Below are positions 40,536-58,051 of a DNA stretch of 64,000 bases, one piece after another. How positions within the stretch are numbered: position 1 is the stretch's first letter; each line of letters begins with the position of its first letter. The position numbers were made by a program, and so were the translations under genes. The DNA is from Oscillospiraceae bacterium (GTDB lineage Bacteria; Bacillota; Clostridia; Oscillospirales; Acutalibacteraceae). The stretch lies in the NCBI GenBank assembly GCA_022650485.1, contig JALCPP010000003.1:186001-250000 (forward strand). Reading direction: 5' to 3'. The notes beneath the pieces were generated by a model. It saw only the letters and a list, made by a program, of their open reading frames with translations. It was not told the origin of the DNA and did no database searches.

Positions 40536-40937
40536 CCATCCTGTATTTTTTAATTTTATCACATTTGGTGCGCTTGAAAGTCTCTTAAAGGCTCAGTATG
40601 ATCAAGCTTCAGATGATTTAACATGCGCATGTGCAACCCGGTGATAAACACAGGCCGCTTGCACTACTTCTTTCTTTCCGGTAAATCTCGAAAGGCTCAA
40701 TCGACCTATATACAGCAAATGTGGCAAATGGTATAATAATAAATATATATACTACAAATATATTATTTGGACAGTATGACAGAAACAGTTCGATTAGCAA
40801 TAAGTAAAAAAACAAAAGATATGTAACATCTGCTTGCTGAAAGTTATAGTGAATTGGAGCTTTATTTTAGGTATTGGTATATGTAATGGACAAAGTTAAA
40901 ATTTAAAAATTAATTAGAAATGGGAGGAAGCGGAAAA
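40536..40937. other. AT-rich gap before the radical SAM gene
   Basis: Visibly AT-rich DNA. I find no gene, no clear terminator and no promoter that I would defend. The ribosome binding site of the next gene (GGGAGG at 40922) lies at its end. Confidence 0.4.
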
Positions 40938-42044
40938 ATGATTTTAAGAGCGAAAACGAAGACTCTATTTGAAGGCAAAACATTAACGGAAAAGCAAAAA
41001 CAAAACAGTGACTTGAATTTATCTGAGATAGACAGGAAATGTACAGTTTTAAAATCGCTGCCACGCCGATTGGTTCTAGAACTGACCAATGCGTGTAATT
41101 TGAATTGTGTCATGTGCGGCAGAAATGCCGCAAAATTTCAGCCTACAGCATTTCATCTTGACTGGCTTCAGTGGCTGGAGCCAATTTTGGATGATATAGA
41201 AGAAGTAACACTGATGGGGTGGGGAGAGCCTACGATCCATCCTGATTTTACAAAAATGCTGGAAATTATCAACAGACATTCAGCGCGAAAGTATTTTTGC
41301 AGCAATGGAATGAATTTAAAAAACATAACCGATGCGATTTTTCAATATAAAGTCGATGTATTTGCAGTAAGTGTGGATGGAGCCACGGCTGAAACCAATG
41401 CTAAAATACGAAAAGGGTCCGATTTGAATCAGATTGCTAACAATTTGCAAAATATTGTCGATATTAAACATAGGGAAAGCTTAAAGTATCCCTATATCAA
41501 TTTTGTTTTTTGCGCAATGAAATCAAATCTTCATGAACTGCCGGGTGTTGTAAAACTTGCGGGTGAGCTTGGCCTCGAAGAAGTCAAGGTGGTTTACCTG
41601 ACCGCTTTTGACTCGAACCTTATGGGAGAGAGCCTTTGGAACTGCCAGAGTGAGGTTGAAAAAGTATTTCACGAAGCACAAAAATTAGGCGAAAAGCTGG
41701 GAGTGGCATTAAAACTGCCATATATACAAGGCCACGATGTAGCGCTTAATAAAAATCACCGGGATTGTTTCGTTTCGTGGCGCGATTTTTTCCTTGGCTC
41801 CGACGGATATGTAAGACCCTGTATGTCTACGCATGTTAAATTTTTTAAGTTTGATACAGATAGAAGCTTTATGGATATGTGGAATGACAAAGCATATCAA
41901 TCGTACAGGAAACATGTAAATGATTCTTTGAAAATGGATGAAGCTTGCAAAAAATGCTATCAATCGTCGCATTGCAACTGGAATTTAAAGCGCTCTTTTC
42001 TGCAATATAACGAAGAGTTTGCTCCGAAGTGGGAGAAAAAATAA
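40938..42044 (+). CDS. Radical SAM/SPASM protein
   Basis: A 368-residue radical SAM enzyme with the cluster motif C53-N-L-N-C57-V-M-C60, TLMGWGEPTIHPDF as the SAM-binding segment and a C-terminal SPASM-type region (DCFVSWRDFFLGSDGYVRPC and ACKKCYQSSHCNW). Such SPASM proteins hold extra iron-sulphur clusters and modify peptides, proteins or sugars. It opens a set of sugar-nucleotide and glycosyltransferase genes, so a glycan or glycoprotein role is likely but not shown. Start: ATG 40938 follows GGGAGG. The 3' end overlaps the next reading frame by 26 bases. Confidence 0.85.
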   Translation: MILRAKTKTLFEGKTLTEKQKQNSDLNLSEIDRKCTVLKSLPRRLVLELTNACNLNCVMCGRNAAKFQPTAFHLDWLQWLEPILDDIEEVTLMGWGEPTIHPDFTKMLEIINRHSARKYFCSNGMNLKNITDAIFQYKVDVFAVSVDGATAETNAKIRKGSDLNQIANNLQNIVDIKHRESLKYPYINFVFCAMKSNLHELPGVVKLAGELGLEEVKVVYLTAFDSNLMGESLWNCQSEVEKVFHEAQKLGEKLGVALKLPYIQGHDVALNKNHRDCFVSWRDFFLGSDGYVRPCMSTHVKFFKFDTDRSFMDMWNDKAYQSYRKHVNDSLKMDEACKKCYQSSHCNWNLKRSFLQYNEEFAPKWEKK

Positions 42045-42417
42045 GCAATTTTACGACTTCTGGGTCAATAATGTGAGATTAATGTATGCCTGTTGCAAAG
42101 AATTTAATATTCCGTTTTTATGCTTCCTGCAGCCTTATGCTTTATATGAAAATAATAAGCTTGCAATGGAAGAAAAAAATAAAATTTTACTTAACCCTAT
42201 TTCTAAATCTTATTGTAAACAGGCAATACAGTTTTATGAGCACATAACGACTGTTAGCAAGGGGTATCCTTATATTGTCGATCTAACCGGCATCTTTGAC
42301 AATCAAACAGATTGTTTTCGACATGGTGATCCAATCCATTGGAATGAAAAAGGAAATCAAATGATCGCGGATGCTATTTTCCGATATCTTATGAAATATG
42401 ACTTTTTAAAAAAATAG
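42019..42417 (+). pseudogene. SGNH-type hydrolase, 5'-truncated
   Basis: The frame encodes 132 residues with the C-terminal hallmark of SGNH/GDSL-like sugar O-acetyl hydrolases: GDPIHWNEKGNQMIADAI, containing the DxxH catalytic pair. The N-terminal half with the nucleophilic Ser (GDS motif) is missing. The frame begins inside the radical SAM gene's 3' end, so it looks like a deletion joint. A functional small protein cannot be fully excluded, but a catalytic triad is not available. Confidence 0.6.
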
Positions 42418-42491: not shown

Positions 42492-44093
42492 ATGAAAAAG
42501 CCAAAAATAACATTTATGATGATCGCTTACAATTCAGAAAATACAATAAACAGGGCTGTCAAGAGTATTCTCAACCAGACGGAAAGAGAGATCAATCTGA
42601 TTGTTCGCAATAACGGGTCAGAGGACAGGACGGGGGAATATTTGAACGAAGCGGCAAAAACAGATCCGCGCCTGCATGTTGTTGAAAACAAAGTAAATTG
42701 GAAAGATAAAGAGGGCAGATCCTTTACATCAGATGGAGTGATACGGATTTGGTCCGTTGAAAATACGGAATTACTCGGAGAATATATTTCAATTGTCGAT
42801 TCCGATGACTGGCTAAGCCCGGAATTTGCCTCTAAAATGTATCATGCTGCAAAAACAAATGATGCGGATATGACAATATGCGGAAATGAGTTTATGGCTG
42901 ATGAAAATAAAAGCGTAGGGGTCCGGTTGCCGCCTGTTTTTTCTGCAAACGGAGAACAGGAAATCGGCAGGGTGGTGCAAGACCGTTATCCTGAACTTCA
43001 CAATTCACTGCGAACATGGTGGGGCAAACTTTTTAAAACAGAATTTTTTCGGTCAAACTACGATGATGTTTGGAAAGCGGTGGGCGGCAAAAACGGCGAT
43101 GTCCTTGACACCGCGGTGATGCTGCGGTACCTGTGCAAGGCGAAAAGCATTGTTGGTGTAGCGGATCCTTTATATAAGTTTTATCGGTCACCCGGTTCGA
43201 CGTATTCAATTGGCAGACCGGTTAATTTTTTTCGTGTACTAGAAGCGGACGAGCTATTTACGCAGAGCTTGGACTGTTTGAAAAATTTTAAGGCAGGCAA
43301 TGCAAATAACATTCATTGGCTTTGCCGAATTCACTGGGTCTATCTTTGTGAGGCTATGGATACGCTTCGGTATCCACACGAAGGCTTTTCGGCTCAGCAG
43401 GAACTGTCGGGCCTTGCGGCTCTTGGAAACAGCGCAGTGCTGCCTGTTTATTATCAGCAAAGCATTAACAAAGTTTATCAAAAACTGATGCAGTCTGTCG
43501 AATCAGTGATGACACGCAGGCCGGATGACAGGAGTCTGTATACATCGTATTTGACCCGGCTGTATTATATCCAAAATGAACTCCATTCTGGAAACCGCAG
43601 TTTGCTGCTGTATCCGATCTGGTGCGGATGTTTATATGACCGGGAAAATCGGAACAAAATAGGGTATCATTTGTTGCAGGAAGTAACAAGTCGCCCATTT
43701 GCTGATCTGGTTGCCGGCGCTTGCGATTATCAGGCGAAGGAAATGCATTCCTGTGTTTCCTGCCCAGCTTTTTGGCCCGATAGTTTATCAATTCAGAAGA
43801 AGACTGCTCTTCTTGAGGCGCGGCTCATAGAGGCGTTTCATAGGAAAAATTTTGATGATTTTGGAAAACTATATGAGAAAATTATGATGACGGATCCACT
43901 TAATCGTACGGCAATATATTATTTCATTAAACTGATGCAGCTTTCCCATGAAAAAAATACGGTTCTGTATGTCCTTGCCGGCACTGGCATTGCTCTTTGG
44001 CCTGCCGATCGTGAAATGCAGAGTTTATGCTGGAGCGTGCTTGCAAACGGAGAAAAAGAAGTGGAAAACAATGAAAAACATAAGTCAGCCTAA
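42492..44093 (+). CDS. GT2 glycosyltransferase with large C-terminal domain
   Basis: A 533-residue protein. Residues 1-110 form a GT-A glycosyltransferase 2 domain (TFMMIAYNSENTINRAVKSI and the DxD-type metal site in YISIVDSDDWLSP). The C-terminal 300 residues are helical without a known motif, perhaps binding acceptor or partner. It transfers a sugar from a nucleotide donor. The start ATG 42492 has only a weak AAGG upstream; reading from 42420 would add 24 atypical residues. It overlaps the next gene by 23 bases. Confidence 0.83.
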   Translation: MKKPKITFMMIAYNSENTINRAVKSILNQTEREINLIVRNNGSEDRTGEYLNEAAKTDPRLHVVENKVNWKDKEGRSFTSDGVIRIWSVENTELLGEYISIVDSDDWLSPEFASKMYHAAKTNDADMTICGNEFMADENKSVGVRLPPVFSANGEQEIGRVVQDRYPELHNSLRTWWGKLFKTEFFRSNYDDVWKAVGGKNGDVLDTAVMLRYLCKAKSIVGVADPLYKFYRSPGSTYSIGRPVNFFRVLEADELFTQSLDCLKNFKAGNANNIHWLCRIHWVYLCEAMDTLRYPHEGFSAQQELSGLAALGNSAVLPVYYQQSINKVYQKLMQSVESVMTRRPDDRSLYTSYLTRLYYIQNELHSGNRSLLLYPIWCGCLYDRENRNKIGYHLLQEVTSRPFADLVAGACDYQAKEMHSCVSCPAFWPDSLSIQKKTALLEARLIEAFHRKNFDDFGKLYEKIMMTDPLNRTAIYYFIKLMQLSHEKNTVLYVLAGTGIALWPADREMQSLCWSVLANGEKEVENNEKHKSA

Positions 44094-45015
44094 AGTCAGT
44101 GTGGTCATGCTGACCTATTTTCATGAGCCATATGTTCGCCATGCACTGGAAAGCATACGGATGCAAAAAGTTAACTTTCCGTATGAGGTGCTTGTTGGGG
44201 ATGATGCGTCAAAAGATGGAACGCAGGTAATCCTGAAAGAATATGCGCGTAACTATCCAGACATTTTCAAAGTGACGCTCAGAAAGACAAACTTAGGCGC
44301 GAATCGAAATGCGTATGACCTTTTGATGCGGGCCCGCGGTCAGTATATTGCAATGCTGGAGGGGGATGACTATTGGACGGACCCTGAAAAATTGCAGACA
44401 CAGGTTGATTTTTTAGACAGCCATCCCCGGTTTATTGGCTGTGCGCACAAATGTGTCGTTGTCAATGAGAAGGAACGGCCGGATTATACTGCGTCGCCTC
44501 ATTGGACCATTCCCAAAAAAATATTTACGCTTGATGATTTTTTAAAACAGGAAGAAACGCCGGGTCAGTCCAGCACGGAAGTGTTTCGCAACATTTTTCT
44601 GGACAAAAGCAAAGATTACACGGCGCTTTATCGAGTGCATCCAATCGTAGGGGATAAGACAAGAACTCTGATGCTTTTATCGCAAGGGAACTATTATTGC
44701 TGGAATAAAGTGATGAGTGCGTACCGGTTTGTCATCAAAAAAGATGGGAAGAACTGGTTTTCCATTCATCACTCAAATCCCAATTGGCAGTGTGATGCCT
44801 TTATGAGACCGGTGAGACTGCAAAAGTATGCAAAGACTCTTGGAATCCACGCTAATATTGGACCAAGGCGCGATTATCATTATGTTTCGCTGCTTGACAC
44901 AATCATGAAAGAGCCAACATTGACACGGTTGAAGCACTTTGCAAAGATGACTGTGTGCAGCGGCAGGCCATTGCACTGTATGAATCTGATAGGAAAGTAT
45001 TTTATTTTAAAGTAA
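44071..45015 (+). CDS. GT2 glycosyltransferase
   Basis: A 314-residue family 2 glycosyltransferase: SVVMLTYFHEPYVRHALESI, YEVLVGDDASKDGTQ and the DxD-type AMLEGDDYWTDPEKLQ. This is the pattern of transferases that add single sugars to surface glycans. ATG 44071 lies within the end of the preceding gene, a 23-base overlap. A second glycosyltransferase in one island suggests a short chain or side group. Confidence 0.87.
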   Translation: MKNISQPKVSVVMLTYFHEPYVRHALESIRMQKVNFPYEVLVGDDASKDGTQVILKEYARNYPDIFKVTLRKTNLGANRNAYDLLMRARGQYIAMLEGDDYWTDPEKLQTQVDFLDSHPRFIGCAHKCVVVNEKERPDYTASPHWTIPKKIFTLDDFLKQEETPGQSSTEVFRNIFLDKSKDYTALYRVHPIVGDKTRTLMLLSQGNYYCWNKVMSAYRFVIKKDGKNWFSIHHSNPNWQCDAFMRPVRLQKYAKTLGIHANIGPRRDYHYVSLLDTIMKEPTLTRLKHFAKMTVCSGRPLHCMNLIGKYFILK

Positions 45016-45055
45016 TTAAGTAATGAATCATAACAAATATAAAAGGGGAAAAACA

Positions 45056-46456
45056 ATGAAATTTTGTGACCGGCCCTTTAACAGCATTCACATTTTACCC
45101 GGAGGTGATGTCTGGGCATGTGGATGGATGCATTTGAAGTTTGGTAACCTGGTTAGTCAAAGTCTTCCGGAAGTGTGGAACAGCAAAATGGCCCAAAAAG
45201 CCAGAGAGTCCATTTTAGACGGTTCCTTTCGCTATTGCCGCAAGGAATCCTGTCCGTTTCTTGAAAATGATTCTTTGCCGGATCTTAATGAAGAACAGGT
45301 AAGAAATCAATCGATTTTGACGGAGGTTCCTTCACAGGGCAGCATCGCCTGCGACTTTACCTGCAATCATATGTGTCCGTCCTGCCGGTCAGAAATATTT
45401 CAACCCACTGAAAAATATGAAAATGATTTACATACAATTATTTCGAGGCTTTTTCCGTATATCAATCGGTTCAAAAAAATGACTACTAATGGCAACGGTG
45501 AGGTATTTGCAAGCAAGCAGCTCATGGAAATGCTTGCGAGATTGCAGCCTGAAAACCCGGATTTTCAGTTGAATCTTGAAACAAACGGGTCGCTGTTTGA
45601 TGAAGCGCATTGGAAACAAATCTCTCATCTTGAAAAGTACGAGATCAGTACGACTGTGACTCCGAACAGCTTTGAAACGGATACATTTAAATATTTAAGC
45701 GGCGGGGATGCCGATGTGGACAGACTGACTCATAATCTTGCTTTTATCAGGGATTTACGGGATACCGGAAAAATCAATCATTATTTCGTCTCCATTGTTG
45801 TGCAGGACCGCAATTTCAGAGAGCTTCCCTCTTTCACGAAACGGTGTTTAGAAGAATTTCATGTTGATGAAGTTGTCATTAAGCCTGTTTATCAATGGTT
45901 TGGTATGAAAGAGGATGTTTACTGGTTTAAAAATGTCCGCAACCCGCTTCATCCTTATTTTAATGAATACAGAGAGATGCTTCGGGATCCGGTGTTTGAT
46001 GATCGGCATGTGTTTTTCTGGGGCAATAGAAAAAATATGACAGCTTCCAAGTCCCATCCGGCATACCAGTACAAAATCAATGAGGATATTCTTCTAGAGC
46101 TGATAAAAGTTCCGGATGCCGGTACACAGCTCTGCGCGGCGCTTAAAAAACTTGGATGCACAAAGGTGGCCGTTTATACCCCGGAGGATCAAATGGGGGT
46201 GCTTCTTGCCGACTTTCTGACGAGGGGCGGTTTGACTCCAAAATGTTTTTTGCAAAGATTTTTTCCAAAAGAGACGAAAAAAAATGGTTTGCCTGTTTAC
46301 GGTTTTCCAGATATGGATTTTCAAGCGGTTGATATGATTCTTGTTACAGATGATTACCATCTGGAAAAAGTTTCAAAAGATATCCAAAACAGTCATTACA
46401 CCGGTAAAATTCTTTCGTTTCAGGAGTTAACAAAGTTGGCTGGTGAGCGGGGATGA
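45056..46456 (+). CDS. Permuted radical SAM protein with Rossmann-like tail
   Basis: A 466-residue protein with an unusual domain order. Residues 1-70 look like a SPASM segment (FCDRPFNSIHILPGGDVWAC, WMHLKFGN, then YCRKESCPF). The radical SAM cluster motif follows at C103-N-H-M-C107-P-S-C110. A SAM-barrel body extends to about residue 345, and from about 346 comes a Rossmann-like domain (ALKKLGCTKVAVYTPEDQMG, DMILVTDDYHLEKVSKDI). In most family members SPASM is C-terminal. The tail resembles the core of the next gene product. It starts at ATG 45056, 8 bases after AAGGGG, and overlaps the next start by 4 bases. Confidence 0.78.
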   Translation: MKFCDRPFNSIHILPGGDVWACGWMHLKFGNLVSQSLPEVWNSKMAQKARESILDGSFRYCRKESCPFLENDSLPDLNEEQVRNQSILTEVPSQGSIACDFTCNHMCPSCRSEIFQPTEKYENDLHTIISRLFPYINRFKKMTTNGNGEVFASKQLMEMLARLQPENPDFQLNLETNGSLFDEAHWKQISHLEKYEISTTVTPNSFETDTFKYLSGGDADVDRLTHNLAFIRDLRDTGKINHYFVSIVVQDRNFRELPSFTKRCLEEFHVDEVVIKPVYQWFGMKEDVYWFKNVRNPLHPYFNEYREMLRDPVFDDRHVFFWGNRKNMTASKSHPAYQYKINEDILLELIKVPDAGTQLCAALKKLGCTKVAVYTPEDQMGVLLADFLTRGGLTPKCFLQRFFPKETKKNGLPVYGFPDMDFQAVDMILVTDDYHLEKVSKDIQNSHYTGKILSFQELTKLAGERG

Positions 46457-47001
46457 AGGCTAGAAATTCGGCGTTACTCGCTGGAGCCGCCGCTTTAGGA
46501 GCAGGTGCGTTGGTAAAGTACTTATGGAAGCAGAAGTACAGAGAAGAAAACAAGCTTGTGAAACAAAACGAAAAAAAATATTGGCTCTATTATCATTGGA
46601 TTCTTTTGAAACATCATCGTGTCGGGTTGGACCAATACTTTCAAAACAGGGAAATCCACAGTGTTGCCGTCATGGACCTGTCACCGCAGGGACGTCAGCT
46701 TATCTCAGAAATTGAAGGAACGAATGTAACAGTCAGCTATGCAATTGAAAAAGAAAATCTGGCGGCAGTCCATGAGACGTTGCAGGTTCTGCGCCTGCAT
46801 GAGGATGCGCTCCCGAAGGTAGACGCAGTTGTTCTCTGCTCACTGAATGACGTTAAACGGGTGAGTGAAGAAGTTACCCGGGAAGTAAATGCCGAGTGCA
46901 AGGTGATTGCGCTGGAAACGGTTATCCTGGATTCTTTAAAAGATAATCACTTGGGATTTCAAGACGGTGTATTACGCTCTTCACCTTATTCAGGTGAATG
47001 A
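46453..47001 (+). CDS. Membrane-anchored Rossmann-like protein, function unknown
   Basis: A 182-residue protein with an N-terminal hydrophobic stretch (ALLAGAAALGAGALVKYLW), a basic helix and a Rossmann-like C-terminal domain (HSVAVMDLSPQGRQLISEIE, VDAVVLCSLNDVKRVSEEV). The last segment resembles the tail of the preceding radical SAM protein. The family is unknown to me. Start overlaps the radical SAM stop by 4 bases (ATGA), so the two are co-translated. A membrane-bound partner of that enzyme would fit. Confidence 0.6.
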   Translation: MKARNSALLAGAAALGAGALVKYLWKQKYREENKLVKQNEKKYWLYYHWILLKHHRVGLDQYFQNREIHSVAVMDLSPQGRQLISEIEGTNVTVSYAIEKENLAAVHETLQVLRLHEDALPKVDAVVLCSLNDVKRVSEEVTREVNAECKVIALETVILDSLKDNHLGFQDGVLRSSPYSGE

Positions 47002-49124: not shown

Positions 49125-49154
49125 CAATTGACCATGAAGATGGAGGCGGATAAG

Positions 49155-49964
49155 ATGAAGATTGATTATGCAGAAAAAGCAAAAGAGTTACGCCGCTCGA
49201 TTATTACAATGTTGCATGATGCAAATGGATCATTCAGCGGAGGAGCCTTGAGTTGTACAGATATTATCACCGTGCTGTTTAACAGTTTTATGCGGGTCAA
49301 TCCCCAAAATCCCAATGATCCGCAGAGAGATATGTTTATTCTCAGCAAAGGGCATTGTTCGTCTGCTATGTATGCGGCACTTGTTTCAGTTGGGTTAATA
49401 CCAAAAAATGAATTAAAAAAATATGGAAAAAACGGTACGCGGATGTTTATTCATCCGAAACGTGGAACATATCCTGGGGTAGAAGTCAGCACCGGCTCTC
49501 TTGGCCATGGCTTGCCGCTGGGAACAGGCAGTGCACTGGCTGCTAAAATTTTGGGTTGTGATGCCAGAGTTTATGTTCTGATGGGAGACGGCGAATGCAA
49601 CGAAGGTTCGGTTTGGGAAAATGCGGCTTTTGCATCTTTTCAAAAGCTGAACAATCTCATTGTCATTGTAGACCGCAACGGTCTTCAGGGATGTGGGAGA
49701 GACAGCCAGATCTTAAATTATGGGGATATGGGGGCAAAGTTCCGCGCGTTTGGATTCCACACAATTGATATTGATGGCCATAGTTACGCAGAAATTGAAA
49801 ATGCGTTTCAACAGGCAACCACACTGCATCAGGATCGGCCGACAGCGATTATTGCACACACGGTGAAGGGCAAGGGCGTTTCCTTCATGGAAGATCGTTT
49901 GGAATGGCATTACAAATCTCCGGATGATGAGCAATTTTCAGCTGCAATGGAGGAACTATCATGA
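49155..49964 (+). CDS. Transketolase-like protein, N-terminal subunit
   Basis: The thiamine-diphosphate (PP) half of a split transketolase, 269 residues: LSKGHCSSAMYAALVSVG, GSLGHGLPLGTGSAL and the GDG-(x)-N cofactor motif in VLMGDGECNEGSVWENAAF and VDRNG. The partner half is the next gene, overlapping by 4 bases. Start: ATG 49155 is 8 bases after GGAGG. Its place beside CDP-sugar genes rather than pentose-phosphate genes suggests transfer of a two-carbon unit to a keto sugar; this is inference. Confidence 0.88.
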   Translation: MKIDYAEKAKELRRSIITMLHDANGSFSGGALSCTDIITVLFNSFMRVNPQNPNDPQRDMFILSKGHCSSAMYAALVSVGLIPKNELKKYGKNGTRMFIHPKRGTYPGVEVSTGSLGHGLPLGTGSALAAKILGCDARVYVLMGDGECNEGSVWENAAFASFQKLNNLIVIVDRNGLQGCGRDSQILNYGDMGAKFRAFGFHTIDIDGHSYAEIENAFQQATTLHQDRPTAIIAHTVKGKGVSFMEDRLEWHYKSPDDEQFSAAMEELS

Positions 49965-50884
49965 GAAATCTTTTTGTTGATGAGATTTATAAAATGATGG
50001 GCGAGGACAGCGGGATTGTCTTTTTGACAGCTGAATGCGGGTTTAACGTGGTCGAAAAGATAGAGCGGAAATATCCTGAGCGGTTTTTCAATACCGGCAT
50101 AGCAGAGCAAAGTTTGGTGGGTACGGCTGCCGGTGTTTCTCTGCGGGGGCTGAGGCCGGTTGCGTATACCATGGCAATGTTTCTTGCCATGCGTGCCTAT
50201 GAGCAAATTAGGGATGATGTCGCCTATCAGAATCTTCCTGTTGTGTTGGCCGGTGTTATCCCGGGGCTTGGCTATGGAAATTCAGGAACTACCCATCATG
50301 CGGTGGAAGACACTGCACTGATGAGGATTCTTCCGAATATGACGGTGGTTTACCCGTCGTGCGAAACGGATGTCAGAACTTTGACGAGAAAAATATTTCA
50401 ACGAAACACCCCGTGTTATATCGGCCTTGCGCGCGCGTCTGCGGATTATCAGCCAAATTATGATGCGGGTGCCATTGAAATTGGAAAGGCCATTCAGTTG
50501 ACTCCTGGAAGAGATGCCGCACTTTTCGCCTTTGGCTCCATGATTCCTGCTGCGGTGCGGGCGGCGGATATTCTGAAAAAAGATGGTATTGGTTTGAGCG
50601 TGTATAACATGCACACGGTAAAACCGCTTGATGCAGAGGCTGTTCGCAAGGCCGCAAAAGAATGCGGCTTGATTTTTACCCTCGAAGAGGAGAATGTCCT
50701 TGGGGGGCTTGGAGGAGCCGTTGCAGAGATTCTTGCGGAAGAGAAGAATGTTTCCTGCCAATTGAAAAGACTTGGTATTCCGGACGAGTATTGTGATGTA
50801 AATGGTACTCAGTCATGGCTTCATGTTCATTATGGCATCGATGCGCAAGGAGTGGCGGCTGCGGTAAGGGAGAAACTTAAATGA
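49961..50884 (+). CDS. Transketolase-like protein, C-terminal subunit
   Basis: The pyrimidine-binding and C-terminal half of the split transketolase, 307 residues: RFFNTGIAEQSLVGTAAGVS, with the conserved Glu that activates thiamine diphosphate, GVIPGLGYGNSGTTHHAVED, and a C-terminal domain (VYNMHTVKPLDAEAVRKAA). It overlaps the N-terminal subunit and the following CDP-glucose dehydratase by 4 bases each, so all three are translationally coupled. The two subunits together form one active site. Confidence 0.88.
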   Translation: MRNLFVDEIYKMMGEDSGIVFLTAECGFNVVEKIERKYPERFFNTGIAEQSLVGTAAGVSLRGLRPVAYTMAMFLAMRAYEQIRDDVAYQNLPVVLAGVIPGLGYGNSGTTHHAVEDTALMRILPNMTVVYPSCETDVRTLTRKIFQRNTPCYIGLARASADYQPNYDAGAIEIGKAIQLTPGRDAALFAFGSMIPAAVRAADILKKDGIGLSVYNMHTVKPLDAEAVRKAAKECGLIFTLEEENVLGGLGGAVAEILAEEKNVSCQLKRLGIPDEYCDVNGTQSWLHVHYGIDAQGVAAAVREKLK

Positions 50885-53118: not shown

Positions 53119-53895
53119 ATGGAACAATTGGTCATATTGGCAGGCGGACTGCCAAGCTCCATCAATGACGATCCACAGCAAATTCCGAAACCTATGATTG
53201 ATATAGGGGGAAGACCTTTGCTTTGGCATATTATGAAGTATTATTCTCAGTTTGGCATACGTGATTTTATTATTTGTGCAGGATATAAGTCGGATGTGAT
53301 CAAACAATATTTTCTGAACTATTACATCTATCGTTCTGATATAACGATTGATTTGTCTAAAAATAAAGTTGAGCTCCATAATAAAATAACCGAGCCATGG
53401 TATGTTACAGTGCTTGACACAGGGATTCATGCAACGACTGCTTCCCGCATCAAACAGGTGGAAGACTATGTGGAGAATGATGTATTTCTGATTACATATG
53501 GTGACTGTCTTTCTAATATTTCAGTGATTGATTTAAAAAATTTATTTAAAAGCAGCCATAAAACGATGACGGTTGCGGCGGCCGCGCCAACAGGGCGGAA
53601 TAAAGTGCTCAATATCAGCAGTTCTGGTAATATTTGTGTAGAAAAAAATCAAGCGGATTCAACGACTTCCTGGACAAATGCATGTACTATGGCTGCAGAT
53701 CATCGTATTTTTCATTATTTAAATCATGATGATATATTTGAAACTGAAACAATCCAAAAACTTGCGGCTGTCCATGAGACAAATGTGTTCTACCACCACG
53801 GCTTTTGGTGCCCCGTGGAAACCGTAAGGGACAAAAACTATGTAGAAACTCTTTGGAATCATAAAAAAGCACCATGGAAAATCTGGAATGATTGA
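53119..53895 (+). CDS. Degenerate glucose-1-phosphate cytidylyltransferase paralogue
   Basis: A 258-residue sister of the next gene product, matching along its whole length (KPMIDIGGRPLLWHIMKYYS, FIICAGYKSDVIKQYFLNYY, YHHGFWCPVETVRDKNYVE). The nucleotide-binding signature GGxGTR is lost: it reads LAGGLPSSINDDPQQIPKPM, and the later catalytic TYGDGVGDVN is TYGDCLSNIS. It probably cannot transfer CMP. It may be an allosteric or assembly partner of the intact enzyme. It ends 11 bases before that gene. Confidence 0.78.
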   Translation: MEQLVILAGGLPSSINDDPQQIPKPMIDIGGRPLLWHIMKYYSQFGIRDFIICAGYKSDVIKQYFLNYYIYRSDITIDLSKNKVELHNKITEPWYVTVLDTGIHATTASRIKQVEDYVENDVFLITYGDCLSNISVIDLKNLFKSSHKTMTVAAAAPTGRNKVLNISSSGNICVEKNQADSTTSWTNACTMAADHRIFHYLNHDDIFETETIQKLAAVHETNVFYHHGFWCPVETVRDKNYVETLWNHKKAPWKIWND

Positions 53896-53906
53896 CAGGT
53901 GAAAAG

Positions 53907-54683
53907 ATGAAGGTAGTTATTTTAGCTGGCGGTAAAGGGACGAGGTTTGTAGAAGAAACGGTTTACAAGCCAAAGCCTATGATAGAAATCTGTGGGAAGC
54001 CAATATTGTGGCATATTATGAACTGGTATGCATCTTTTGGATATACAGAGTTTATCATCTGTTGTGGCTACAAAGGAAAGATGATAAAAGAATATTTTTT
54101 AAATTATTTCATGGAAAATTCCAGCGTTCGAATTGATCTTCAGACTGGCAAACTTCACTGGCTTTTTGGTTCTGTTGAACCGTGGAAAGTGACGCTTGTT
54201 AATACTGGATTGGATACTCCGACTGCTGGAAGACTGCTGCAAGTGAGAAAATATATTGACAGTGACACGTTTATGCTTACATATGGGGATGGAGTGGGTG
54301 ATGTGAATATCAATGAGCTGCTGCAATATCATCACAGCAGCGGCAAGATAGCAACAGTTTCCGTGACGAAACCAGAGGGTCGATTCGGCGCCGTGAAAAT
54401 TGATGACCAGACGGGTTTGGTACAGGGTTTCCGAGAAAAGGCGCGTGTTGATCAGTCTTGGGTGAATATTGGTTTTGCCGTGTTTTCCACAGATGTTTTT
54501 GATTACTTGGGCAATGGCAGCAGTATGTTGGAACAGAGGCCATACGAAAAACTTGCAGACGATGGTCAGATGTCCGCCTATCATCATCAAGGTTTTTGGT
54601 CACCGATGGATACGATTAAAGATAAGTTGTACCTTGAAAATCTGGTGAAAAGTAACAATGCGCCTTGGATTGTCAAACGTTGA
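53907..54683 (+). CDS. rfbF: Glucose-1-phosphate cytidylyltransferase
   Basis: RfbF, 258 residues, makes CDP-glucose from CTP and glucose 1-phosphate, the donor for CDP-glucose 4,6-dehydratase. Intact motifs: VVILAGGKGTRFVEETVYKP and KPMIEICGKPILWHIMNWY, LTYGDGVGDVNINEL and HHQGFWSPMDTIKDK. It starts at ATG 53907 behind AGGTGA; a TTG 15 bases earlier is less likely. Last gene of the island. Confidence 0.92.
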   Translation: MKVVILAGGKGTRFVEETVYKPKPMIEICGKPILWHIMNWYASFGYTEFIICCGYKGKMIKEYFLNYFMENSSVRIDLQTGKLHWLFGSVEPWKVTLVNTGLDTPTAGRLLQVRKYIDSDTFMLTYGDGVGDVNINELLQYHHSSGKIATVSVTKPEGRFGAVKIDDQTGLVQGFREKARVDQSWVNIGFAVFSTDVFDYLGNGSSMLEQRPYEKLADDGQMSAYHHQGFWSPMDTIKDKLYLENLVKSNNAPWIVKR

Positions 54684-55342: not shown

Positions 55343-58051
55343 ATGAAAGTTTCAAAGAAGGCTCTGGCGCTTGTGCTGTCCGTTGCAATGGTGGTTAGTT
55401 CGTTTGCCGGAACCACGGCTTTTGCAGCAGACAAGGGTTCTCTTGATTTGGCAAGCGCTGAATTATCATATTCGCCCAATCAGTCAGGCGGCGGGATTGT
55501 TCCATTGTTTGATACTTCCAACATGCTTCGTTCAGGGAAGCACTCTCGTCTTGGCCAGAATGCCAGTTTCGAAGACAGTTACAACCTTGTAAAAGACAGC
55601 GGAATGACCCCGAATTTAAGAGATCAGGCCTCTTGGGGAACCTGTTGGGCATTTAGTGCATTAGGTTCTGCTGAATCTTCGCTTTATGATGAGGAACACC
55701 TGAAAGATTCCCAGTTTTCTGCACGGCATTTAGCGTATTTCACTTATAACAGCGCTAATAATCCTGATGTGCCGGAGGATGGGACACAGGGAGATACTTA
55801 TTGGGCTGAAGATCCATTTCAAAATGGTGGAAACGTTTATATGGCCATTGCTACTCTCGCACGGGAAGAAGGGGCAGAGCTGGAAAGTGAGGTTCCTTAT
55901 CCTGCACCGAGTGATTTTAATGATGATTTTGATGCTCCCGAATTCAATACGGTAGATCCGGAGTATCAATTTGATTCCGTCTATCAGCTGAAAGAAGCAA
56001 ATTTTCTGCCCAATAAAGATGCTGATGGAAATCTAGACGGATCAGCCATTAAACAGGCTTTGCTCGGCGGCACATCGGTGAGTGTATTCCTTTTTTATAT
56101 GCGTCCATATCTTGTTCAAAAAGTAGATGATGTGGAATATCCCACTTATTTCAATAACAACCGTGTGTCATTTAATAATCATCTGGTTCAAATTGTCGGC
56201 TGGGATGACACTATTTCAGCGGAAAATTTTTCAGATGAATCCGGTAATTCCCCTGACGGGGACGGCGGCTGGCTGATTAGAAATTCCTGGGGAGAACAGG
56301 ACGACCATGGATGCGGGTATTTTTATATTTCTTATGAAGATTCAACTATGGCTATGTTCTGTACTCTTGATATGGACAGACAGCAAAACCGGTACGCACA
56401 TAATTACCAGTATGATGGACTTGGTATGTGCAATCAAATAGGCATCAGCGAAGAAACAACACCGGTCAAAATGGCAAATGTATTTACAGCAACCGGAGAT
56501 CAAACTCTTGACGCGGTGTCTTTTTACACCACAGATCCGGGTGCAGAATACAGCATTCAGGTTTATACTGAATTGAGCGGAAGTGATCCGACCCATGGAA
56601 TCGCCGCTTACGAAACGGAACAGTCCGGTACGGAAGAATATGCCGGATATCATACCATTGGTTTAAACCGGGCAGTCAATCTGTCAGAGGGCGACAAATA
56701 CTCTGTTGTCGTGTCCTTAAAGAACGTCGGCGGAGGTGCATATCCTGTTGCTGTTGAATATGGCGAAGAGGACTGGTCAGTAACCGATATCGAGGAAAAT
56801 CAAAGCTATTTGTATAATGGAACAAATTGGTATGATCTAAAAGATATTAACGAGATGGGAGACGAAAGTTATGGAAATGTCTGCCTGAAAGCGTTTACAA
56901 CGGACGGACAGACAGGCTTTACACCAACCAAGCCATCACAGCCATCAAAACCATCAAAACCATCAAAGCATCACCATTCAAACGATTCTTCCGACAACGA
57001 TTCTTTCATCACTGCGGAGCCGTTTACCCCCAGCACAATTGCCCCGACTAAAAACGAGGATGGCGTCACAACTGTTACAGTGACCTGTGTGCCGGATTCC
57101 ACGCCGACGGTCAGCGGCAACACTTCCACATTCAGCGTGACAGTCCCGACCAACGCGGCGTCTGCCGCCATATCTTCCGGGACAGTTCAGCAGCATGCCC
57201 GGGTGGATGTTACTTTGCCGAATGACACGATTATCAGCCAGCTGAATAACAGCGCTGTGCAGTCGGTGGTCATGACGATAAAGGCACCTTCCAACATTGC
57301 TTATGGTACAGCCCCGAATGTTGATGTCAGCATTATGCTGGATGCAGCAGTTCTGCAAGCCGCTGCTGCAGCGAAGAAGGATGTTACGATTTCCATTTTG
57401 GATCAAACAACCGGAAAAGTTGCTTATACATGGACTTTTAAAGGCAGTGATTTGGCTCAGTCCGGAAACACATTTAGAAGTATCAACCTTGCGGCAACAA
57501 CGCTGACCACAACACTGGATGCCGAGGTTAGCAGAACCATTCCGGCTTCTGTAAAGGGCGTTGTTCTGTCTTTTGCAGATAACGGAGTATTACCGGCTGT
57601 GGCAAATATCAGTGTTTATGTTGGAGATCAGGGTTTCCACGCTGGTCAGCCAGCGTATCTGTATTACTACAATGAGGATACGAAGCAGCTGGAAACAGTT
57701 GGCAATAACAAACTGGAAATTGATGCGAACTGTTATGCGCACATGCCAATCAGCCATTGCTCAAAGTATGTGCTGCTTCCGGCACAGGTTACTGCCGTAA
57801 CTCCGGTCAAACTGGATACGGGCAGACAGCTTTCGGTCAAAGCCGGAAAAAGCTATCAATTTAAGGTAACGGCTTCCCGGAAACCAACTTTCATTTCCGG
57901 TAACAGCGCTGTTTTTCAAGTTAAAGAAACCTATTCTAAAGGAAACAATTATTTCTTTAAAGTGACGGCTGTTGGTAAAGTTGGCGCCGGCGCCGGTTTC
58001 TATGTGAACGGTGAAAAGACACCGCGCACCATTGCGACGATTATAAAATAG
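55343..58051 (+). CDS. Secreted papain-like (C1A) cysteine protease
   Basis: A 902-residue exported protein. Signal peptide: residues 1-28 (KKALALVLSVAMVVSSFAG, then AFA cleavage). The C1A domain covers about 80-330: catalytic Cys101 in WGTCWAFSALGSAES, His280 in NNHLVQIVGWD, Asn314 in WLIRNSWGE. A lectin-like domain follows (about 350-520), then a flexible PSQPSKPSKPSKPSK linker, and C-terminal beta domains with no sorting motif. Such proteases process surface or host proteins. It may be tethered non-covalently to the wall. Monocistronic. Confidence 0.9.
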   Translation: MKVSKKALALVLSVAMVVSSFAGTTAFAADKGSLDLASAELSYSPNQSGGGIVPLFDTSNMLRSGKHSRLGQNASFEDSYNLVKDSGMTPNLRDQASWGTCWAFSALGSAESSLYDEEHLKDSQFSARHLAYFTYNSANNPDVPEDGTQGDTYWAEDPFQNGGNVYMAIATLAREEGAELESEVPYPAPSDFNDDFDAPEFNTVDPEYQFDSVYQLKEANFLPNKDADGNLDGSAIKQALLGGTSVSVFLFYMRPYLVQKVDDVEYPTYFNNNRVSFNNHLVQIVGWDDTISAENFSDESGNSPDGDGGWLIRNSWGEQDDHGCGYFYISYEDSTMAMFCTLDMDRQQNRYAHNYQYDGLGMCNQIGISEETTPVKMANVFTATGDQTLDAVSFYTTDPGAEYSIQVYTELSGSDPTHGIAAYETEQSGTEEYAGYHTIGLNRAVNLSEGDKYSVVVSLKNVGGGAYPVAVEYGEEDWSVTDIEENQSYLYNGTNWYDLKDINEMGDESYGNVCLKAFTTDGQTGFTPTKPSQPSKPSKPSKHHHSNDSSDNDSFITAEPFTPSTIAPTKNEDGVTTVTVTCVPDSTPTVSGNTSTFSVTVPTNAASAAISSGTVQQHARVDVTLPNDTIISQLNNSAVQSVVMTIKAPSNIAYGTAPNVDVSIMLDAAVLQAAAAAKKDVTISILDQTTGKVAYTWTFKGSDLAQSGNTFRSINLAATTLTTTLDAEVSRTIPASVKGVVLSFADNGVLPAVANISVYVGDQGFHAGQPAYLYYYNEDTKQLETVGNNKLEIDANCYAHMPISHCSKYVLLPAQVTAVTPVKLDTGRQLSVKAGKSYQFKVTASRKPTFISGNSAVFQVKETYSKGNNYFFKVTAVGKVGAGAGFYVNGEKTPRTIATIIK

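Follow-up and report, generated by a model that had tools for sequence, protein, structure and literature searches.

It was found that a gene in a glycan-synthesis cluster of an Oscillospiraceae bacterium encodes a radical SAM enzyme which, as judged from the sequences of the enzyme and its homologs, has a permuted BtrN-like architecture. From the N-terminus, the protein consists of a twitch domain, the radical SAM core, and a Rossmann-like tail. The tail is homologous to a module of the next protein, P2, which is putatively anchored in the membrane. The enzyme-P2 pair is not obligatory, and the steadier neighbour of the enzyme is a GT2 glycosyltransferase rather than P2. I would give a probability of about 40% to the reading that the protein is a sugar-modifying radical enzyme docked beside the GT2 by paired Rossmann modules, and held at the membrane, in the present case, via P2.

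The window is the whole stretch of DNA that was analysed, 64,000 nucleotides in length (GCA_022650485.1, contig JALCPP010000003.1, positions 186,001 to 250,000, forward strand). The enzyme gene (45056..46456, forward strand) has an ATG at 45056 and the stop codon TGA at 46454-46456, and its ORF encodes 466 amino acid residues. A second in-frame ATG lies upstream at 45023, but it is probably not the start, since the homologs begin at the Met of ATG 45056. The P2 gene (46453..47001, forward strand; 182 amino acid residues) starts with the ATG at 46453 and overlaps with the enzyme gene by four bases, ATGA. Directly upstream of the enzyme gene lies a gene for a GT2 glycosyltransferase (44071..45015, forward strand; Pfam Glycos_transf_2, 80 bits). 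The start at 44071 is the likely one and was picked by eye, while the longest ORF is 43948-45015.

Domain order of the enzyme and its known relatives

A preliminary description, made from the sequence alone, had pointed out SPASM-like cysteines in front of a CxxxCxxC motif. The N-terminal region indeed matches PF13186 (SPASM) over residues 4-66, with 40.1 bits against a cut-off of 21.5. For conservation, an alignment of 14 sequences (A3) was used, which consists of the window enzyme, the homolog of a second genome (G189), two Lachnospiraceae homologs (L005 and L006), and ten sequences from family f52; the protein of locus L051, which is interrupted by a stop codon, was left out. C4, G17, C22, C61, C66, C103, C107, and C110 are invariant in 14/14, which rules out chance cysteines. 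C103, C107, and C110 form the CxxxCxxC motif exactly at the positions first described. The N-terminal motif reads CX12GX4C...CX4C (C4-X12-G17-X4-C22 ... C61-X4-C66). CX9-15GX4C is the auxiliary-cluster motif pattern of SPASM/twitch enzymes, and C4-X12-G17-X4-C22 agrees with it. A full SPASM domain has seven cysteines and two auxiliary clusters, while only four cysteines are invariant in the N-terminal domain of this enzyme. Thus, the domain is assigned to the twitch type, with one predicted auxiliary cluster, and the earlier description stands with this refinement.

The twitch domain (residues 1-70; 45056..45265, forward strand) is delimited by the PF13186 match, the invariant cysteines, and the match to BtrN described below. 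It lies N-terminal to the radical SAM core (approximately residues 92-335; 45329..46060, forward strand), and not C-terminal to it, in the Pfam matches, in the alignment, and in the structural model. The core was assigned from the CxxxCxxC motif, the match to BtrN residues 7-135, and the fold matches. Pfam Radical_SAM (PF04055) gives 17.4 bits over residues 103-224 of the window enzyme, which is under its cut-off of 29.5, but all 14 homologs match this family, with a best E of 1.2e-9. The AlphaFold2 model of the enzyme is ordered throughout, with a mean pLDDT of 89.2. Residues 1-80 lie at 88-96, so that a disordered N-terminus is ruled out.

The permuted order, which had also been proposed before, was borne out by a comparison of the 14-sequence enzyme profile with PDB sequences. 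BtrN came first (E 2.9e-7) and NifB came next (0.0018). The alignment with BtrN falls into two swapped stretches: profile positions 92-221 lie on BtrN 7-135, and profile positions 4-77 lie on BtrN 169-241, which is the C-terminal twitch of BtrN. The E-value of 2.9e-7 belongs to the whole sequence, while either stretch alone is weak (i-Evalue of about 0.05). BtrN (4m7s/4m7t) is the radical SAM 2-deoxy-scyllo-inosamine dehydrogenase, a sugar-alcohol dehydrogenase. Both proteins combine a radical SAM core with a four-Cys twitch, whose first Cys pair is CX12GX4C in both. In contrast, the domain order is reversed, BtrN has CX2C where the enzyme has CX4C, and the Rossmann tail is an addition of the enzyme. 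In passages of a 2021 review (PMC9012708), SPASM and twitch domains are described as C-terminal extensions, and BtrN is described as an aminocyclitol oxidase with four Cys ligands on its auxiliary cluster.

N-terminal-twitch enzymes are already catalogued in NCBIfam (NF033640, N_Twi_rSAM), and the arrangement is not new as such. As in the present enzyme, the twitch of this family comes first and the core follows. Residues 2-273 of the enzyme align with profile positions 3-305 in one stretch, but score only 31.3 bits where the cut-off is 170. All 14 homologs match NF033640 weakly, but sub-cut-off matches were also found in 14/14 control genomes, so that such weak matches say little and NF033640 failed as a marker of the arrangement. 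Neither a Rossmann tail nor a membrane partner was seen for the NF033640 family, in contrast to the window enzyme. In the open-access literature, no paper was found on N-terminal SPASM or twitch enzymes, nor on radical SAM enzymes in polysaccharide clusters.

In the fold search with the enzyme model, DesII was top among the matches listed (Z 15.0, rmsd 6.4 over 267), followed by MoaA, SkfB, and viperin-like proteins (Z 14.3-14.4) and by BlsE (13.7). These are effectively tied within about 1.3 Z, and thus the structural ranking picks no substrate. BtrN was absent from the best 50 rows of either structural list, and it may be present lower down. Single-sequence searches of the PDB by phmmer, with the enzyme and with P2, gave no useful match. 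A permuted twitch enzyme offers a clean case for asking what the position of an auxiliary cluster does.

The Rossmann-like tail, P2, and the GT2 neighbour

The C-terminal tail (residues 345-466; 46088..46453, forward strand) was delimited by the alignment, by hhalign comparison with P2, and by the AlphaFold2 model, in which strands and helices alternate. It had been suggested from the sequence that the next protein has one membrane helix and a Rossmann-like core similar to this tail. The similarity is real. When the profile of 14 tails was compared with that of 11 P2-like modules, the probability was 98.7% (E 2.9e-16, 101 columns), and against the six stand-alone P2-like proteins alone it was 98.3%. 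As controls, the tail gave 0.6% against SDR and 0.3% against GT2, and the P2 set gave 0.2% against SDR; a tail that is unrelated to P2 is thus ruled out. Plain BLAST between the window's own two sequences did not detect the homology (E 5.6).

The P2 model (pLDDT 85.3) agrees with the suggested layout. By DSSP, one long helix spans residues 6-54 (46468..46614, forward strand), and an alternating alpha/beta domain follows. The first 20 residues or so of the helix make a putative membrane segment, which is Ala/Gly-rich and only moderately hydrophobic (best 17-residue hydropathy, 1.62). The iterated module profile places the Rossmann-like module at residues 49-166 (46597..46950, forward strand; E of about 2e-13), in line with the fold matches given below. 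Pfam and NCBIfam gave no match on the window P2.

Do the enzyme and P2 travel together? In the 2.55-Mb genome of the window, the P2-type module profile matched nothing but P2 and the tail, which are adjacent. Likewise, among the window ORFs of at least 80 residues, the iterated module profile found only P2 and the enzyme (2/59 proteins). Among 200 genomes of the same family, the enzyme is present in two, and a stand-alone P2 is present in the same two; the third P2-type match among the 200 falls on the C-terminal end of a GT2 (L013). The other of the two genomes (G189, locus L004) has the genes arranged as GT2 - P2 - enzyme, while the window has GT2 - enzyme - P2, and the two GT2s are 46% identical. 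The pairing is thus close in that the profile finds only two module copies in the genome, adjacent to each other, and in that both genes occur in the same 2/200 genomes. To this extent, the preliminary description is supported.

A fixed two-part enzyme, on the other hand, is not supported by the relatives. A stand-alone membrane-anchored copy lies within 2 kb of the enzyme gene in only 4/16 close loci, namely the window, L004, L051, and L052, and L051 is interrupted by stop codons. On the tree, the loci with an adjacent P2 fall into two separate enzyme clades and are not clustered (61/500 shuffles were as low). Some distant enzymes have an N-terminal Rossmann part; four such loci were fetched, and two of them (L055 and L057) have a P2-like gene next door. 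As for the enzyme itself, it was found in 22/397 genomes of family f52 (E <= 1e-15), 12 of which have close relatives (E <= 7e-73), and class-wide in 3/391 genomes (E <= 1e-20), the window's own included. A contig scan with one protein found only two loci. A plasmid search gave two distant matches, neither of which covers 80% of the query. A viral origin was set aside, as none of the 26 stretches that matched a pattern in viral contigs encodes a relative.

P2-like domains were found in 16/24 enzyme-bearing genomes (11/19 of those not supplying the search profile) and in 2/36 other genomes (Fisher 3.4e-5). When the enzymes' own tails are left out, 22/43 P2-like matches are no more than 15 kb from an enzyme gene, whereas 0.41 would be expected with uniform placement. 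Both the co-occurrence and the proximity would also follow from membership in one type of cluster. P2-like proteins are also encoded in glycan clusters where no such radical SAM gene was seen in the stretch, and thus P2 is no exclusive partner of the enzyme.

In locus L051 (G1174:C16:42217-44107), the P2-like gene and the adjoining radical SAM gene have one in-frame TAG each. This may be joint decay, sequencing error, or recoding.

The GT2 gene is the steadier neighbour. A GT2 homolog lies within seven same-strand genes of the enzyme gene in 13/15 other close loci, and it is at position +1 or -1 in seven (L005, L006, L042, L043, L044, L046, and L048). No GT2 homolog was found in the fetched stretches of L045 and L051. 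In eight loci (L005, L006, L042, L043, L044, L046, L049, and L050), the GT2 itself has a C-terminal module, while in six (the window, L004, L047, L048, L052, and L053) it has none; in the window GT2, the iterated module profile found no module. A stand-alone membrane-anchored copy was found within 20 kb in 0/8 loci with a module-bearing GT2, but nearby in 5/6 loci with a module-free GT2 (17 kb away in L047 and 8 kb away in L048). This swap pattern has a Fisher value of 0.003, although the loci are related and not independent, and the eight loci with a GT2-borne module form one clade, so that the swap is partly confounded by the tree.

The sixth locus with a module-free GT2, L053, lacks the tail as well, and its genome gave no P2-like match, which fits the docking reading. 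L045 speaks against that reading, since its enzyme carries the tail although neither a GT2 homolog in the fetched stretch nor a P2-like match in the genome was found. In the search for stand-alone copies, L005 and L006 were checked with profile A2 only, and the other module-bearing loci with profile A4; the L043 contig is only 6.6 kb in length. The L006 genome has one P2-like match, with an internal stop codon, about 3 Mb away, and the genomes of L044 and L050 carry stand-alone copies, though on contigs other than those of the loci. The swap pattern can be read as one module with two modes of supply, in cis as part of the GT2 and in trans as P2.

Docking in a glycan cluster or a common accessory module

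The pair is not known to have a role in glycan synthesis. This had been stated in the preliminary description and holds for the pair, although the two genes lie within a cluster for the synthesis of a glycan. Genes for a UDP-GlcNAc 2-epimerase, a nucleotide-sugar dehydrogenase, and aminotransferases lie at 29.9-36.8 kb of the window, and those for a UDP-galactopyranose mutase, a split transketolase, a CDP-glucose 4,6-dehydratase, and glucose-1-phosphate cytidylyltransferases lie at 47.9-54.7 kb. Across 15 loci, the 135 proteins encoded around the enzyme gene include 17 GT2s, 7 DegT aminotransferases, and 4 WbqC proteins. Sugar genes thus surround the enzyme gene in the window and in its relatives, and a sugar of this glycan is the likely substrate.

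Some of these sugar genes have features of their own. The split transketolase pair (49128-50884) adjoins the CDP-glucose 4,6-dehydratase gene, and a pair that looks similar by eye is found in L005 (3816-5509), several genes ahead of the gene for the enzyme. The split transketolase pair is perhaps part of a route to a branched-chain sugar. The glucose-1-phosphate cytidylyltransferase genes (53119-53895 and 53892-54683) are adjacent and score 276 and 341 bits against a cut-off of 300; since the first is below the family cut-off, its product may have another substrate.

If the enzyme is a sugar-modifying one docked beside the GT2, the radical SAM core would make a 5'-deoxyadenosyl radical, which would take hydrogen from a hydroxyl carbon of the sugar. 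The twitch cluster would then accept an electron to give a keto sugar, or the hydrogen would be returned to give an epimer. The substrate may be a sugar donor or a lipid-linked saccharide of the cluster's surface glycan. The tail would be non-catalytic and would dock to a homologous module, which some loci would supply as the C-terminal part of the partner GT2 and others, like the window, on P2 with its putative membrane anchor. Such docking would keep the radical enzyme at the inner face of the membrane, close to the GT2 by which its substrate is made or used. If this holds true, gut-type anaerobes use radical chemistry in the assembly of surface glycans, and the two genes offer a small system for asking whether a shared docking module organises glycan enzymes at the membrane.

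The chief alternative, which is quite possible, is that the tail and P2 belong to a common accessory Rossmann family of glycan clusters and make no physical contact, the module itself binding a nucleotide sugar or another ligand. In family f52 and related stretches the module is widespread. Here the iterated module profile matched 152/426 proteins in 32 loci, compared with 2/59 in the window, although the former figure is inflated since presence of the enzyme or the module was the criterion by which the 32 loci were picked. Methyltransferases, GT families, sulfotransferase-like proteins, and radical SAM proteins are among the carriers, and some of the modules are PglD_N or C2185-like_N by Pfam. 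This variety of enzyme types is what an accessory family would produce, and the many P2-like genes away from the enzyme gene and the absence of the tail from the L053 protein point in the same direction. In the window genome, however, the profile finds only two copies, which are adjacent, and both genes are present in the same 2/200 family genomes. The GT2/P2 swap pattern also argues against an accessory family without contact.

The docking reading might also be extended to the whole cluster. One docking module would then serve many enzymes, attached N- or C-terminally to glycosyltransferases and methyltransferases as well as to radical SAM enzymes, and would exist as a membrane copy too. Like modules would pair, with a partner in cis (the GT2) or in trans (the membrane anchor), to build an assembly line for surface sugars, and the window, with just two copies found in its genome, would be the minimal form. 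I regard this extension as rather unlikely.

The module is found on many unrelated glycan enzymes (L093-L102, L042-L057, and L013), with stand-alone membrane-anchored copies beside them. Among 129 longer carriers, it is located at the N-terminus in 61 and at the C-terminus in 65.

Fold relatives of the module and two improbable alternatives

The P2 model matched 2g6t (Z 9.2, rmsd 2.8 over 94 residues), Rex repressors (up to Z 8.7, rmsd 4.2 over 104), and 3nkl (Z 8.4, rmsd 4.1 over 95). It also matched the Rossmann domain of WbaP (8t53; Z 7.5, rmsd 2.8 over 85 residues), where a structural Z under 8 may mean only a common arrangement. In sequence, the tail profile matched 3nkl (E 6e-5) and Rex (E 6e-4) in the PDB, while the P2-type profile A5 found no credible match among PDB sequences (best E 0.05).

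Rex and other NAD-binding folds near P2 and the tail are what a redox version of the two-part enzyme of the preliminary description would lead one to expect, in which the tail and P2 would bind NAD(P) and pass electrons to or from the iron-sulfur clusters at the membrane. This explanation seems improbable. The GxGxxG motif is lost in both window domains and is present in 5/14 tails and 3/11 P2-like modules, which argues against a conserved NAD(P) site and a general NAD(P) role. In addition, P2 has no Pfam match, and most close enzymes have no adjoining P2.

The PglD_N and C2185-like_N domains (PF17836 and PF22674; 2g6t and 3nkl) resemble the module in fold and in their appended position in glycan enzymes. 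In contrast, the window P2 stands alone on a putative membrane helix and has lost the glycine motif. Neither the window P2 nor the window enzyme matched these two Pfam families, and one enzyme homolog matched C2185-like_N with an E of 0.038. WbaP is also similar in that a Rossmann domain is attached to a membrane glycan enzyme, but WbaP has a catalytic domain of its own and P2 has none. No paper on WbaP and such Rossmann domains was found in the open-access literature, where PglD and Rossmann domains led to one review and WbqC to two general genome papers.

Peptides or cofactors are frequent substrates of twitch and SPASM enzymes, a point against a sugar as the substrate. A maturase of a peptide or a metal cofactor, standing in the glycan cluster by chance, for which SkfB is near in fold and the best NCBIfam scores are those of TIGR04317 (47.5 bits) and TIGR04311 (44.7 bits), far under their cut-offs of 380 and 400, is hardly likely, given the sugar genes around the enzyme in the window and its relatives and given that the closest PDB sequence is that of the sugar-alcohol dehydrogenase BtrN.

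A few other genes of the window may be mentioned. The gene at 40920-42044, 3 kb upstream of the enzyme gene, also encodes a radical SAM protein, but one in which the SPASM domain is C-terminal; the best NCBIfam match of this protein is TIGR04317, with 156 bits against the cut-off of 380. A 132-residue ORF with a TTG start (42019-42417) matches only the end of GDSL lipase (122-208 of 208) below the Pfam cut-off, and it probably represents either a gene remnant or a gene with a misassigned start. The glycan cluster is followed by a gene (55343-58051) whose 902-residue product combines a papain-type protease domain with a lectin-like one.
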